A stretch of DNA of 64,000 bases from Georhizobium profundi (GTDB lineage Bacteria > Pseudomonadota > Alphaproteobacteria > Rhizobiales > Rhizobiaceae). The stretch's first letter is position 1. Each line of letters begins with the position of its first letter. The stretch is from the NCBI RefSeq assembly GCF_003952725.1, contig NZ_CP032509.1:496001-560000 (forward strand), in the 5' to 3' direction. The position numbers and the translations under genes are program-made. Below, in pieces: positions 42,765 through 52,627 of the stretch. Below the pieces are notes generated by a model. It was not told where the DNA came from. It made no database searches and saw nothing but the letters and a program-made list of their open reading frames with translations.

Positions 42765-43586
42765 CTAACGCGCCTTGCCGCGCAAGGCAAGAATCGCGGC
42801 GGCCGTCTCCTCGATCGACTTTCGAGTCACGTCGATCATCGGCCAGTTCCTGCGCAGGCAAAGGGAGCGGGCGTGTTTCAGTTCTTCGGCGATCGTCGCG
42901 CGGTCGGTGTATATTTCTGAGTTGTATCCTTGCGCGTTGCCGAGCATGCGGTTTAGCCGCACCTGCGCGATGCGTTCGGTGGACGCAATGAGCCCGACGA
43001 TCAGCGGCTTGCGCGCCTGGTCGAGCGCCGGCGGCAAGGGATTGCCCGGCACGATCGGGAAGTTGGCGGTTTTCACGCCGCGGTTGGCCAAATAGATGCT
43101 CGTCGGCGTTTTGGACGTGCGGCTGATCCCCACGAGAACCACATCGGCTTCTTCGTAATCGGTGATGATCTGACCGTCGTCATGATCCATCGTGTAGTTC
43201 AGCGCATCGATCCGGCGAAAATATTCCGCGTTCATCACATGCTGGGCACCGACGCGGCGCCGCGACGGAGCTCCCAGATAGGACTGGAACACCGTCATGA
43301 TCGGCTCGAGCACGGAAACGCTCGGAACGCCCATTTCCCGGCACCTTGTGTCGATCATGGAGGACAGGTCCTGATCGACGATCGTGTAGAGCACGATGCC
43401 CGGCGCACCATCGATCGCGTCAAGCACAGCACCCAGCTGCTTGCGGTTCCGAATCAGCGGATAAACGTGCTCCAGCACCTGAGCGTCCTGGAACTGCGCA
43501 GACGCAGCTCTGCCGGCCGCCATTAGGGTTTCACCGGTCGAGTCCGAAATCAGATGGAGGTGAAAGTAATTTTTCGGCTGATCCAC
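42765..43586 (-). CDS. ppsR: PEP synthase regulatory protein-type kinase/pyrophosphorylase (DUF299)
   Basis: 273 residues from a GTG at 43586, chosen because [10 protein letters not shown] aligns residue for residue with the start of rhizobial homologues; the frame stays open to 43757. The P-loop [11 protein letters not shown] and the N-terminal LISDSTGET are family hallmarks. The family uses ADP to phosphorylate and phosphate to dephosphorylate PEP synthase or pyruvate phosphate dikinase; which one here is unknown. It borders the candidate replication origin. Confidence 0.92.
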
Positions 43587-43987
43587 ACGATTCACTGAGG
43601 GCTGTTGATGACTGTTGATGACTTTCGGAATGATGATCGCGGTGTTCTCAGGCCGGTATGAACTGCCGACTTGTCCACAATGAGCACTGCGGGGACGGCC
43701 TTTCACGGTCAATGTCACGCTGCGGGGAATCGGGGGACGCGTCAACACACCATCCACAGCTTAACCAAAAGGGATCAAGGCTGTGTTTCGCCGCAAAATG
43801 CTGAAATGTCATCGCTTTTTGGGGTGTCCACATTGCAAAGCGAATCAAGTGATTCCAGTGTGCGGCACAGATGGCTTCCACGCTTCTTGTGGAGAAGATG
43901 TTGACCAAAACTAATCCCTGGAACACACCGACTCTAAGAAGAAGAATCCATTTCAAAGAATCCTTTATTTAAGGAAGAGGAGACGCC
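43566..43987. other. Candidate chromosomal replication origin (oriC) between ppsR and hemE
   Basis: A 400-nt gene-free stretch upstream of hemE, the position of the origin in Caulobacter and several rhizobia. DnaA-box-like 9-mers: TTGTCCACA (43671-43679), TGATCCACA (43579-43587) and, on the minus strand, TTCTCCACA (43888-43896), each one base from TTATCCACA; weaker ones lie near 43750 and 43824. Seven GANTC sites start at 43589, 43727, 43842, 43851, 43930, 43944 and 43958, against about 1.6 expected by chance. A CtrA-like TTAACC is at 43761-43766. Genes diverge from it. Confidence 0.72.
43602..43621. repeat. Tandem 10-bp repeat in the candidate origin
   Basis: CTGTTGATGA occurs twice in perfect head-to-tail array, just inside the ppsR edge of the gene-free region. 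It could be an iteron-like element or chance. Confidence 0.6.
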
Positions 43988-45013
43988 GTGACCGACCGAA
44001 AGGTGCTGCGCGTTCTGGCAGGAGAGACTATCAGCCCACCGCCGATCTGGCTGATGAGACAAGCGGGACGCTATCTTCCGGAATATCGGGAGACACGGCT
44101 GAAGGCGGGAAGCTTCCTCGATCTTTGCTACACGCCCGAATACGCTGTCGAAGTGACGCTGCAGCCGATCAGGCGGTACGCATTCGATGCTGCGATCCTG
44201 TTCTCGGACATTCTCGTCATTCCCGATGCCTTGAAACGTGGTGTGCGCTTTGAAGAAGGGCGAGGGCCCTTGATGGAGCCGATCGATGCCGATGGCATTG
44301 CCGCGCTTACTCCGGAAGGCGTGATCGACCACCTGGCCCCGGTATTCGAAACGGTACGGCGTTTGAGAGCCGAGTTGCCGGCCGAGACGACCCTGCTCGG
44401 TTTCTGCGGTGCGCCTTGGACGGTTGCGACCTACATGATCGCGGGGCATGGAACGCCTGACCAGGCACCGGCACGATTGTTCGCCTACCGCGAACCTGCC
44501 GCATTCGCGCGACTTCTGGACCTGCTGGCCGACATATCTGCCGACTATCTGTGTGCACAGATCGAAGCTGGCGCCGACGCGGTTCAGATCTTCGACTCCT
44601 GGGCCGGTGTTCTGGGAGAAGCCGAATTCGAAGCCTTTGCGGCTCGCCCCGTCCGCCGCATCGTCGACCAAGTTCGGGCACGTCATCCGCAGGCGCGTAT
44701 CATCGCTTTCGCAAAAGGTGCCGGCGCCCTTCTGGAGGGTTACCGCAAGCGCACCGATGCGGACGCGATCGGTCTCGACTGGTCGGTGCCGCTGTCTTTC
44801 GCCAAGCGGCTTCAGGAAGAAGGTCCGGTTCAGGGCAATCTCGATCCGATGCGCGTCGTTGCGGGCGGGAAGGCTCTGGATGAGGGGATCGATGCCATTC
44901 TCGATGTTCTCGGCAATGGGCCGCTGATCTTCAATCTCGGTCATGGCATCACGCCGCAGGCCGATCCTGCACATGTGACGCAGCTGGTGGAGCGGGTGCG
45001 TGGTCGGACCTGA
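43988..45013 (+). CDS. hemE: Uroporphyrinogen decarboxylase HemE
   Basis: Decarboxylates uroporphyrinogen III to coproporphyrinogen III in haem synthesis. 341 residues with a GTG start behind a strong AGGAAGAGGAG. The N-terminal signature [19 protein letters not shown] carries the catalytic arginines, and the catalytic Asp is in [13 protein letters not shown]. Its end overlaps hemJ by 14 nt. First gene rightward of the candidate origin. Confidence 0.97.
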
Positions 45014-48388: not shown

Positions 48389-48404
48389 TGACTCACGTGA
48401 AACA
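48389..48404. other. parS-like site between mnmE and mnmG
   Basis: TGACTCACGTGAAACA matches the ParB-binding consensus TGTTTCACGTGAAACA at 14 of 16 positions, with one full half-site intact. It lies 2.5 kb from parA. Confidence 0.7.
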
Positions 48405-50301: not shown

Positions 50302-50912
50302 AAGTCGATCATAGTGATCTTCGTGTTTCACGTGAAACAGTGGACAGGCTAGCGATTCTTGTTGACTTGCTACAGCGCTGGCAATCGCGGATCAATCTTA
50401 TTGGCCCGTCTACGGTGGATGATATTTGGTCCCGTCACATCCGTGATTCGATCCACGTATATCATACGCAGCCCGCATCGTTTCGGTGGGCTGATCTTGG
50501 TTCGGGCGCCGGCTTCCCTGGACTTGTGACGGCTATCTGCCTTGCGGAACAGGATCGTGGCCACGTACACCTCATTGAAAGCAACTCCAAGAAAGCTGCG
50601 TTTTTACGGGCAGCCATACAGGCCACTGGGGCGCGCGCAACCGTGCACGCTGACCGTATCGAAGCTGCATCGCTCAAGATCGAGCGGCCTGATGCCGTTT
50701 CGGCGCGTGCACTGGCTTCGCTGTCGGACCTATTGCAGCTGACGGAGGCCTGGATTTCGGAAGGAACAGTTGCCTACTTCCACAAAGGTCGGGATTACCG
50801 CAACGAGGTCGAGGCAGCTCGTGGCGCTTGGGAATTTGATCTGGTAGAACATAAGCAAGACCGGAACGATGAATCGGTCTTGCTGGAGATCAGTGGCCTC
50901 CGTCGCCGCTGA
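50298..50912 (+). CDS. rsmG: 16S rRNA m7G527 methyltransferase RsmG (GidB)
   Basis: 204 residues with a GTG start overlapping mnmG. The SAM-binding motif [12 protein letters not shown] and the RALASL segment match the family. RsmG methylates G527 of 16S rRNA with SAM. Codons 13-18 carry a perfect parS. Codon use is clearly AT-shifted: 12 of its first 30 codons end in G or C. Confidence 0.95.
50334..50349. other. Perfect parS site inside rsmG
   Basis: TGTTTCACGTGAAACA, a 16/16 match to the universal chromosomal parS palindrome, lies within codons 13-18 of rsmG and about 600 bp upstream of parA. It would be the main ParB nucleation site of this chromosome. Confidence 0.95.
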
Positions 50913-50932: not shown

Positions 50933-51718
50933 ATGCTGAATCGGATCATCACCATTGCGAACCAGAAGGGTGGCGTCGGCAAAACGACGACCGCCATCAA
51001 TTTAGCGACGGCCCTAGCGGCGATCGGCGAGAATGTCCTTGTGATCGATCTTGATCCCCAAGGCAATGCGAGCACGGGACTTGGCATCGAGCGGAAGGAG
51101 CGTCGGCTCTCAAGCTATGACCTGCTGACGAATTCTGCGACGTTAGAAGAGATCGTCGTACCGACGGCTGTTCCCAATCTGTCGATCGTGCCATCGACAA
51201 TGGACCTGCTCGGTGTTGAGATGGAAATCTCGTCAGCCTCCGACCGTGTGCTGCGCGTAAAGAAGGCGCTGCAGACCGATGCCGCTCGCCGCTACAGTTA
51301 TGTCCTGATCGATTGCCCGCCGTCGCTGAACCTTCTGACCATCAATGCCATGGTTGCCGCTCACTCTATCTTGGTTCCGCTGCAATGCGAGTTCTTTGCG
51401 CTGGAAGGTTTGAGCCAGTTGCTCGAAACCGTCGGCCAAGTCAGACAGACACTCAATCCAGCGCTTGATATCCAGGGGATAGTGCTGACCATGTATGATG
51501 CGCGCAACAACCTCGCCCAACAGGTGGTGGCCGACGTGCGCGAGCATCTGGGGGACAAGGTTTACACCACACTCATCCCTCGCAATGTGCGTGTTTCTGA
51601 AGCGCCGTCCTATGGTAAGCCGGCTATCATTTACGACCTCAAATGCGCTGGTAGCCAGGCTTACTTGCAACTGGCCTCTGAGGTTATCCAGCGCGAGCGT
51701 CGGCGGCGGGCCGCTTGA
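50933..51718 (+). CDS. parA: Chromosome-partitioning ATPase ParA
   Basis: 261 residues. The deviant Walker A KGGVGKTT (K12-T19) is at the N-terminus, with the switch region VLIDCPPSL. Its length and lack of an N-terminal HTH mark it as the chromosomal type (ParA/Soj). It works with ParB to segregate the origin region. 20 nt after rsmG; parB follows. Confidence 0.97.
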   Translation: MLNRIITIANQKGGVGKTTTAINLATALAAIGENVLVIDLDPQGNASTGLGIERKERRLSSYDLLTNSATLEEIVVPTAVPNLSIVPSTMDLLGVEMEISSASDRVLRVKKALQTDAARRYSYVLIDCPPSLNLLTINAMVAAHSILVPLQCEFFALEGLSQLLETVGQVRQTLNPALDIQGIVLTMYDARNNLAQQVVADVREHLGDKVYTTLIPRNVRVSEAPSYGKPAIIYDLKCAGSQAYLQLASEVIQRERRRRAA

Positions 51719-51745
51719 TTGTCCGGATTGTCCAAGGAAGACATG

Positions 51746-52627
51746 ATGAGTGAAGACACTTCAAAGAGACGCCTCGGCCGCGGATTGGCCGCCTTGATTG
51801 GCGAGATGGATCAGCCTGAAACAACGGCACCATCGCGTGCGAAAGCCGACAGTTTCGTTCCGATCGAGCATGTAACGCCGAATCCTAATAACCCTCGCCG
51901 CCAGTTTGATCCGGACGATCTCAAGGACCTCGCGGCGTCGATCAGCCAGCATGGTGTCGTGCAGCCTGTCGTCGTGCGCACGCGCGGGGCAGGGCGCTAC
52001 GAGATCATTGCTGGTGAGCGGCGTTGGCGCGCATCGCAGCAGGCTGGGCTGGTCGAGATCCCAGTCATCGTTCGCGATGTGGACGACCGTACAGCGCTTG
52101 AGTTGGCGATCGTCGAGAACGTTCAGCGCGCCGATCTTAATCCATTGGAAGAAGCGCAGGGATATCAGCAGCTTATCGCGGAACACGGCTATACGCAGAA
52201 CGATCTCGGCGACATCATCGGCAAAAGCCGCAGCCATGTTGCCAACAGTCTTCGGCTGTTGAAGCTGCCTGAAATCGTGCGGTCGATGCTTGCCGGTGGT
52301 CAGCTGTCATCGGGGCATGCGCGCGCCATCGCGGCGACGTCGGATCCAACCAAGCTGGCGCGCGAAATCGTCAGCAAGGGCCTGTCCGTTCGAGATGCAG
52401 AGCGCCTGGCCCAGAAAGATGCCGAAATCGGTGGTGCCGAAAGCGAGCCAACAAGAGCGGCTGCATCGAAGGACGCCGATACTCTGGCGCTCGAGCAGTC
52501 CTTGTCCAACGTGCTCGGTTTGAAGGTCGAAGTCAGCCACAAGTCACGCGGCGGCCATATCCGCATCGATTACAAGTCGCTGGATCAACTAGATGAGCTT
52601 TGCCGGCTGCTGGGCGCCAGAAGCTAA
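51746..52627 (+). CDS. parB: Chromosome-partitioning protein ParB
   Basis: 293 residues from the ATG at 51746 (AAGGA 7 nt upstream). The frame also has TTG 51719 and ATG 51743. The N-terminus MSEDTSKRRLGRGLAALIGE carries the basic LGRGL patch that stimulates ParA. The CTPase signature GERRWRAS is at 90-97, followed by an HTH near GKSRSHVANSLRLLKLP and a C-terminal dimer domain. Converges with holA. Confidence 0.97.
   Translation: MSEDTSKRRLGRGLAALIGEMDQPETTAPSRAKADSFVPIEHVTPNPNNPRRQFDPDDLKDLAASISQHGVVQPVVVRTRGAGRYEIIAGERRWRASQQAGLVEIPVIVRDVDDRTALELAIVENVQRADLNPLEEAQGYQQLIAEHGYTQNDLGDIIGKSRSHVANSLRLLKLPEIVRSMLAGGQLSSGHARAIAATSDPTKLAREIVSKGLSVRDAERLAQKDAEIGGAESEPTRAAASKDADTLALEQSLSNVLGLKVEVSHKSRGGHIRIDYKSLDQLDELCRLLGARS

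Follow-up and report, generated by a model that had tools for sequence, protein, structure and literature searches.

The window, by which we mean the whole 64,000-nucleotide stretch of Georhizobium profundi DNA that was analysed, covers C1:496001-560000 of a single 4,356,607-bp contig that starts at dnaA. Two of its genes, ppsR (minus strand) and hemE (plus strand), diverge, as a sequence-only reading of this DNA had described, from a gap that measures 401 bp (Table 1). That reading had also taken 400 nt within 43566-43987 (C1:539566-539987 on the chromosome) to be gene-free and to have AT-rich ends. We found that 43587-43987 is free of genes, but that 43566-43586 is coding, because the PpsR start kept in relatives is a GTG at 43586 on the minus strand. 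The hemE end is AT-rich (43930-43979), whereas the ppsR-side AT-rich end, with its least stable 30-mer at 43546-43575, lies within ppsR itself. GC content was 49.5% in 43566-43987 versus 62.2% in the window. The sole RNA gene match in the gap was to IMPDH RNA and fell below threshold, scoring 19.2 bits where the gathering cut-off is 95.4.

Partitioning functions are encoded nearby, with parS sites and parAB located 5-12 kb from the gap. Three parS-like palindromes were seen in the window, at 48390 (two mismatches), 50325 (none), and 55909 (one), and parS-like matches on both strands numbered six where 0.97 were expected. Elsewhere on the chromosome, a second, short match to the Bac_DnaA domain (28.5 bits, C1:4144862-4145164, locus L002) is possibly a DnaA regulator of the Hda type.

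Table 1. Features of the ppsR-hemE region; positions are those of the window.
Feature	Position	Strand	Remarks
ppsR (COG1806/DUF299; PEP synthase/PPDK regulator)	42765..43586	-	NCBIfam NF003742, 333 bits; start by comparison
Probable oriC, gap of divergent ppsR/hemE	43587..43987		DnaA cluster, KOPS switch, conserved gene pair
DnaA box TGATCCACA (Caulobacter G-box sequence)	43579..43587	+	One mismatch; overlaps ppsR start codon
Two weak DnaA boxes TCATCAACA, spaced 10 bp	43603..43621	-	Two mismatches each
DnaA box TTGTCCACA, most conserved box	43671..43679	+	One mismatch
Two weak DnaA boxes CCATCCACA and TTAACCAAA	43750..43769	+	Second holds TTAACC at 43761
Weak DnaA box GTGTCCACA	43824..43832	+	Two mismatches; register not conserved in relatives
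DnaA box TTCTCCACA, closest to unwinding end	43888..43896	-	One mismatch
Conserved block adjoining hemE (relatives' consensus TTTTAATCCTTGATAgtCACcGACTCTAAGAAATAGAA)	43909..43950	+	Alignment of relatives
Conserved CcrM-type site GACTC	43930..43934		GANTC in 71/71 aligned relatives
Probable DNA unwinding element (50 bp of lowest stability in gap)	43930..43979		Stability scan
A every third base (AAG AAG AAG AAT)	43936..43947	+	NAN run of four in window
Short direct repeat, 14-bp unit	43942..43966		GAATC in each copy (43944, 43958); register not conserved in relatives
hemE, uroporphyrinogen decarboxylase	43988..45013	+	NCBIfam TIGR01464, 406 bits
parS GTTTCACGTGAAAC	50325..50338		Perfect match; 6.3 kb from origin, adjoins parAB
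parAB	50933-52627		parA/parB gene calls

A motif scan returned exactly the counts given in the sequence-only reading: three 9-mers in 43566-43987 that are each one mismatch from TTATCCACA, weaker copies, seven GANTC sites, and a TTAACC at 43761. The weaker copies comprise five boxes at two mismatches (43603 and 43613 on the minus strand; 43750, 43761, and 43824 on the plus strand), and no perfect DnaA box was found in the gap. To set these counts against a background, we used a non-overlapping sample of 1.14 Mb (26%) of the chromosome that includes 0-740 kb and the contig end. The hemE-ppsR gap holds a DnaA-box cluster above this background. Nowhere else in the sample were three boxes with one mismatch or fewer packed into 401 bp as they are in 43566-43987, and its count of boxes with up to two mismatches was reached by 0.02% of the sampled intervals.

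We evaluated conservation among hemE loci, taking the best 80 of 583 confirmed loci (protein identity 68-83%), of which the closest are Rhizobium-named or Rhizobiales records. In 72 of these 80, ppsR lies upstream of hemE. Alignment was possible for 71 relatives, leaving out the eight loci lacking a ppsR match and one partial locus (L103). Gaps in the relatives measured 390-527 bp to the hemE match, with a median of 416, against 401 bp in the window. The most conserved box is that at 43671, which has at most one mismatch in 68 of the 71 relatives and is perfect in 25. The 9-mer aligned with 43579 has up to two mismatches in 59/71 but up to one in only 2/71, and the box at 43888 does not keep its register (3/71 relatives have one mismatch or fewer there). 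Among the weaker copies, the first of the pair at 43603..43621 reads TTATCAACA in 22/71 relatives, while 12/71 have a box with no more than one mismatch at the position of CCATCCACA, 6 of these being perfect, and 38/71 have one at the position of TTAACCAAA, with 14 perfect. The boxes of the window are degenerate where many relatives have perfect ones, and two boxes of at most one mismatch fall inside 43587-43987 versus a median of three in relatives.

The same alignment bears on the TTAACC, which had been called CtrA-like. No Caulobacter-type CtrA site (TTAA-N7-TTAA) was found here, and TTAACCAAA, which contains the TTAACC, aligns with those 38 near-consensus DnaA boxes. It looks like a DnaA box that decayed in the lineage of the window. 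We rejected the CtrA site; the Sinorhizobium meliloti origin, too, is reported to be without CtrA motifs and unbound by CtrA (PMC4433202, in excerpt).

Related origins have been described before. The Caulobacter origin is reportedly compared with others by Shaheen (2009), and the S. meliloti oriC (SMc04880/sra01) is said to be the subject of Sibley et al. (2006). That the Caulobacter origin adjoins hemE, as the sequence-only reading stated, agrees with a report that the Caulobacter and R. prowazekii origins sit between hemE and COG1806, the ppsR family (PMC1914354, in part). Caulobacter crescentus Cori shares with the window gap not only these flanks but also weak DnaA sites, including the G-box TGATCCACA (PMC4285127, in excerpt), and several GANTC sites reported in the origin (PMC3973325, in excerpt). 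The window gap differs from Cori in having no TTAA-N7-TTAA sites and in the form of its most conserved box, whose consensus is TT[AGT]TCCACA and not the G-box.

Nearer comparisons come from Sinorhizobium- and Agrobacterium-named loci, although neither S. meliloti itself nor A. tumefaciens C58 is among them. Three Sinorhizobium-named loci (L054, L061, and L089) share the gene order and the block with GACTC, and have three, one, and three boxes of at most one mismatch, respectively. The block with GACTC is also carried by the Agrobacterium-named loci of A. rubi, A. salinitolerans, and A. vitis (L082, L091, and L098). In A. tumefaciens, ori1 is likewise a main origin and DnaA-dependent (PMC11514494, in part); the genome of the window is one contig.

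On the wider scale of the class, hemE was found in 103 of 124 genomes (our own included), of which we fetched 80, omitting weak matches and several near contig ends. The divergent ppsR-hemE gap is kept in 60 of these 80, and in 53 of the 60 the least stable 40 bp begins in the hemE-side third of the gap. Among the best 80 loci, seven (L077, L113-L116, L119, and L121) have no ppsR match in the sequence of up to 3 kb upstream of hemE and yet carry the GANTC block; six of these seven are Aurantimonadaceae-type records, and the neighbours of the origin may have changed in them. A further locus of note, L122 (JAHREI010000001.1), is titled Bacillus subtilis SK6B4 but has a hemE-ppsR region of alphaproteobacterial type, and is probably a mislabelled or mixed assembly.

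Strand polarity provided an approach independent of the gap itself. We mapped GGGNAGGG, which we take to be KOPS, the FtsK-orienting motif, and sought the best single change point by maximum likelihood in the contiguous 0-740 kb. It falls at C1:538233-541610, which brackets C1:539566-539987, with 10 of 41 matches forward before the break and 12 of 15 after it (label permutation P=0.005). The break is not sharp, since placing it at 497966-510435 costs only 1.0 log unit and at 189723-196767 only 1.6. Of the first 100 forward matches, out of 233, 10 are located below 540 kb and the other 90 at 541.6-1685 kb. The reverse switch lies at 2681399-2681429, where KOPS are forward in 20/20 cases before and reverse in 46/48 after. 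We then looked for dif with a consensus that we assume to be correct. A strict pattern had zero matches genome-wide. A looser scan of 2.52-2.96 Mb identified a dif-like 24-mer at 2,680,850-2,680,873, a near-palindrome with two mismatches on either strand, 0.5 kb from the KOPS reverse switch; the best single match of this looser scan was elsewhere (2671980, one mismatch).

GC skew had been proposed as a check on the origin, and gave a divided answer. The cumulative G-C minimum of the contiguous 0-740 kb, in a sample of about a third of the chromosome, was at 306,517 and not at the gap, while 10-kb bins with positive skew made up 18 of 20 from 540 to 740 kb versus 4 of 10 in 440-540 kb. The minimum is where it is because skew is positive at ~320-400 kb. 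The segment C1:306000-400000 (loci L138, L139, and L024-L026) has the skew sign of the opposite arm with its KOPS polarity unchanged, and it displaces the minimum of cumulative skew in 0-740 kb by 233 kb from the origin. Taken at face value, the minimum at 306,517 and the poor localisation of the KOPS break would favour a true origin elsewhere, near 306 kb or at dnaA, with the gap serving only as a DnaA-regulated promoter. This is highly improbable: 19 of the 24 KOPS in 306-540 kb are in left-arm orientation, no other pair of boxes with at most one mismatch lies within 401 bp among the top clusters of the sampled 1.14 Mb, and the replication arms would be divided 54:46 with an origin near 306 kb or 62:38 with one at dnaA. 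From an origin at ~540 kb, the arms would be 2,141,081 and 2,215,526 bp (49:51).

Giving more weight to homology, the DnaA-box cluster, and the switch in polarity than to raw skew, we place the origin at 43587-43987. At a probability of about 0.94, judged from sequence, this gap would be the DnaA-dependent oriC of a Rhizobiaceae-like chromosome, of the alphaproteobacterial hemE-ppsR type. The proposal that the main-chromosome origin lies here is strongly upheld by the gene pair, the DnaA cluster, KOPS polarity, the position of the terminus, and conservation. The location of the least stable 50 bp beside hemE and the proximity of parS and parAB agree with it, whereas the diffuse KOPS break, the skew minimum at 306,517, the lack of a perfect DnaA box, and a box count below the median of relatives speak against it.

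Within the gap, the alignment of the 71 relatives, which is evidence free of motif pre-selection, drew attention to the hemE end. Here an AT-rich segment, the probable unwinding element, has the GACTC at 43930 as its left edge. Measured from the conserved GANTC, the 40 bp of lowest stability has a median start of +5 (between -10 and +40 in 61 of 71 gaps, window included). Of the 80 loci, 79 carry the block and its GANTC ahead of hemE. Past the GANTC, A recurs at every third base. Runs of at least four NAN were present in 72/72 loci scored (9/81 could not be scored), in a scoring that fixed part of the block, including the A's at +7, +9, and +10. The A's at +13 and +16 from the conserved GANTC, which were not fixed by the selection, were present in 78/78 loci, as was A at +10, where A or T was allowed; for this count the GANTC and both A's at +7 and +9 were fixed, either G or A was accepted at +8, and L077, L101, and L110 were missed. 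At the N of the GANTC, 73 of the 78 loci have C and 5 have G, in sites that were selected on GANTC. We considered whether coding could explain the three-base period; this is unlikely, as one frame contains a TAG and the positions of the invariant bases do not match codon positions 1 and 2.

The other strand of the block is T-rich towards the DnaA boxes, and in unwinding of the E. coli style the T-rich strand is directed towards the boxes; a T-rich-strand reading of this kind may apply to the window. The three-base period also recalls the DnaA-trios of the B. subtilis BUS, which call for three or more 3'-NAN-5' trios no further than 16 bp from a DnaA box (PMC8287927, PMC10721633, both in part). 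In our reading of these excerpts, the rule places the box 3' of the trio strand. The window departs from it in two ways, as the nearest box with at most two mismatches ends at 43896, 39 bp off, and the polarity as read is opposite.

The block itself appears to be of narrow distribution. A search with CACCGACTCTAAGAA at one mismatch matched 24 of 385 class genomes, fewer than a reversed-pattern control, and 0 of 4 other genomes of the same order. We also compared a degenerate 14-mer with the sequence ahead of hemE in 80 class genomes, including a single one of the same order; its best match had two mismatches in 1 genome, three in 10, and at least four in 69. By these searches, the block is seen only within the Rhizobiaceae-like group represented by the best 80 of 583 hemE loci.

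The position of the block next to a gene raises the question of whether it belongs to the origin at all. It may instead be a regulatory element of hemE, either a promoter or a promoter sensitive to CcrM and GcrA, with the origin using the rest of the gap; we regard this as possible but rather doubtful. In its favour, 79 of 80 loci have the end of the block 41-168 bp before the hemE match, many relatives have a TTGATA that would make a fair -35 element, and GANTC can act in promoters via GcrA (PMC8725594, in part). The TTGATA is lost, though, in the window and in Brucella-group loci where the GANTC core is kept, and a simple scan of 43500-44100 returned no sigma-70-like promoter (0 versus 0.4 in shuffles, a weak test). 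The core CGACTCT/AGAGTCG does not fit the Caulobacter GcrA motif YGAKTCK, which may differ by species (PMC8725594, in part), and the S. meliloti oriC gap is reported as silent, with no transcript (PMC2245857, in excerpt). Further evidence against a role in hemE regulation comes from one genome (G385, whose L101 record is titled Rhizobium sp. 18055) with two hemE genes. The copy linked to ppsR (L254) retains the block, along with two boxes of at most one mismatch, whereas the second copy (L101) lacks the block and is the single exception among the 80 loci. This second copy encodes a HemE 72% identical to that of the window and is on a 24.8-kb contig with ORFs of 463 aa and 164 aa upstream.

We then asked what the GANTC sites contribute. 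The seven sites in 43566-43987 (43589, 43727, 43842, 43851, 43930, 43944, and 43958) exceed the mean of 2.25 in dinucleotide shuffles of the gap (P=0.005 for at least seven) and the sampled genome rate of 0.47 per 401 bp. The genome-average rate overstates this contrast, because in Ensifer GANTC is scarce genome-wide and roughly twofold enriched between genes (PMC8725594, in part). Seven per 401 bp was the maximum in the 1.14 Mb sampled, equalled only at C1:170241-170941; this second cluster is in locus L131. Six of the seven sites are found at the aligned place in at most 3 of 71 relatives, the exception being the GACTC at 43930.

Although individual sites move, the tendency to carry GANTC at the hemE end is shared. 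Downstream of the conserved site, 76 further GANTC were counted in 72 loci (window included) versus 16.2 +/- 3.9; they are present in 43/72, at positions that shift among loci. Over the hemE-side segment of the 72 related gaps, again including the window, the count was 141 versus 32.4 +/- 5.6, whereas the rest of the gap was not clearly enriched (142 versus 123.8 +/- 9.6). In the hemE-side segment, relatives also had many copies of a matched control palindrome, CTNAG (80 versus 141 for GANTC), because CTAAG belongs to the conserved block. In the unwinding segment of the 60 class genomes, we counted 41 GANTC versus 12.8 +/- 3.7 in shuffles, and seven composition-matched palindromes occurred 1-13 times each. 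All such counts across related genomes are inflated by shared ancestry.

In E. coli, the 13-mers of oriC are headed by GATC. Like that origin, the gap has methylation sites within an AT-rich segment adjoining the DnaA boxes, and the GANTC counts agree with the enrichment of methylation sites that marks origins sequestered in the Dam/SeqA manner. GATC is over-represented in oriC of E. coli (PMC4285127, in excerpt). The methylase and the motif differ, and published CcrM data speak against an equal role. The sequence-only reading had tied initiation to CcrM methylation state through dense GANTC sites; methylation of these sites would then set the time of firing, which would be analogous to Dam/SeqA. 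One RAMA-domain methyltransferase of the CcrM type (382 aa) is encoded in the genome, the GANTC excess in the unwinding segment recurs in both the 60 class genomes and the 72 gaps, and origins of repABC replicons are described as GANTC-rich (PMC6090056, in part). We nonetheless consider a timing role very unlikely. Apart from the poor conservation of six of the seven sites, genomes with and without a RAMA methyltransferase showed no contrast: at least one GANTC was in the unwinding segment of 31/53 RAMA-positive and 3/7 RAMA-negative genomes, an underpowered comparison, and mean GANTC per gap was 2.64 and 2.57, respectively. RAMA absence here means absence in a domain search; 2 of 15 RAMA-negative genomes had a substantial CcrM-like match, and one positive genome (G016) was below the cut-off. 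When the RAMA-positive genomes were divided by whether ppsR adjoins hemE, the last 100 bp held a GANTC in 29/53 of those with the neighbour and in 3/12 of those lacking it (Fisher P=0.11). CcrM is reported to be dispensable for the control of initiation in Caulobacter (PMC3973325, in excerpt), and its depletion in A. tumefaciens delayed ori2, with no obvious change to ori1 noted in the excerpted text (PMC11514494). The GANTC sites probably become hemimethylated once the origin fires, yet it is most likely not they that time initiation.

Since CcrM timing as stated is unlikely, conservation of the GACTC at 43930 needs another reason. It could be a structural component that DnaA reads within the unwinding element, it could regulate hemE, or it could exert a methylation-dependent fine control that bulk experiments do not show. 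A conserved GANTC at the unwinding edge of such origins had no description in the literature searched, which covered few subscription papers and in which the feature may already be in print. As a speculative and on balance unlikely reading of these sequences, origins of the Rhizobiaceae-like group could have a fixed unwinding head, with GA[CG]TC at the edge followed by A:T every third base and mobile GANTC sites, that couples opening to methylation. Fully methylated origins might then open more readily, or a protein might read the hemimethylated edge after firing.

Returning to the gap as oriC, its anatomy and conservation and the strand-polarity switches near both ends are direct observations, and from the sequence we infer DnaA binding, a melting site, and helicase loading. 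DnaA would anchor on TTGTCCACA at 43671 and on the two other near-consensus sites, spread across degenerate sites towards hemE, and melt the AT-rich segment at about 43930-43979, of which the conserved GACTC is the start. Helicases would load at the melted segment, and two forks would travel about 2.14 and 2.22 Mb to the dif-like terminus at C1:2.681 Mb.

The gene pair and the kind of origin are already known from Caulobacter and Rickettsia; the conserved methylation site at the edge is the unexpected detail. For this chromosome, several independent signals place the origin although the contig starts at dnaA, 0.54 Mb off. For its Rhizobiaceae-like relatives, one GANTC is kept at the unwinding edge although published work, in the excerpts cited above, shows no timing role for CcrM. 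If the fixed unwinding head is real, it would be a layer of robustness invisible in the published bulk CcrM experiments.
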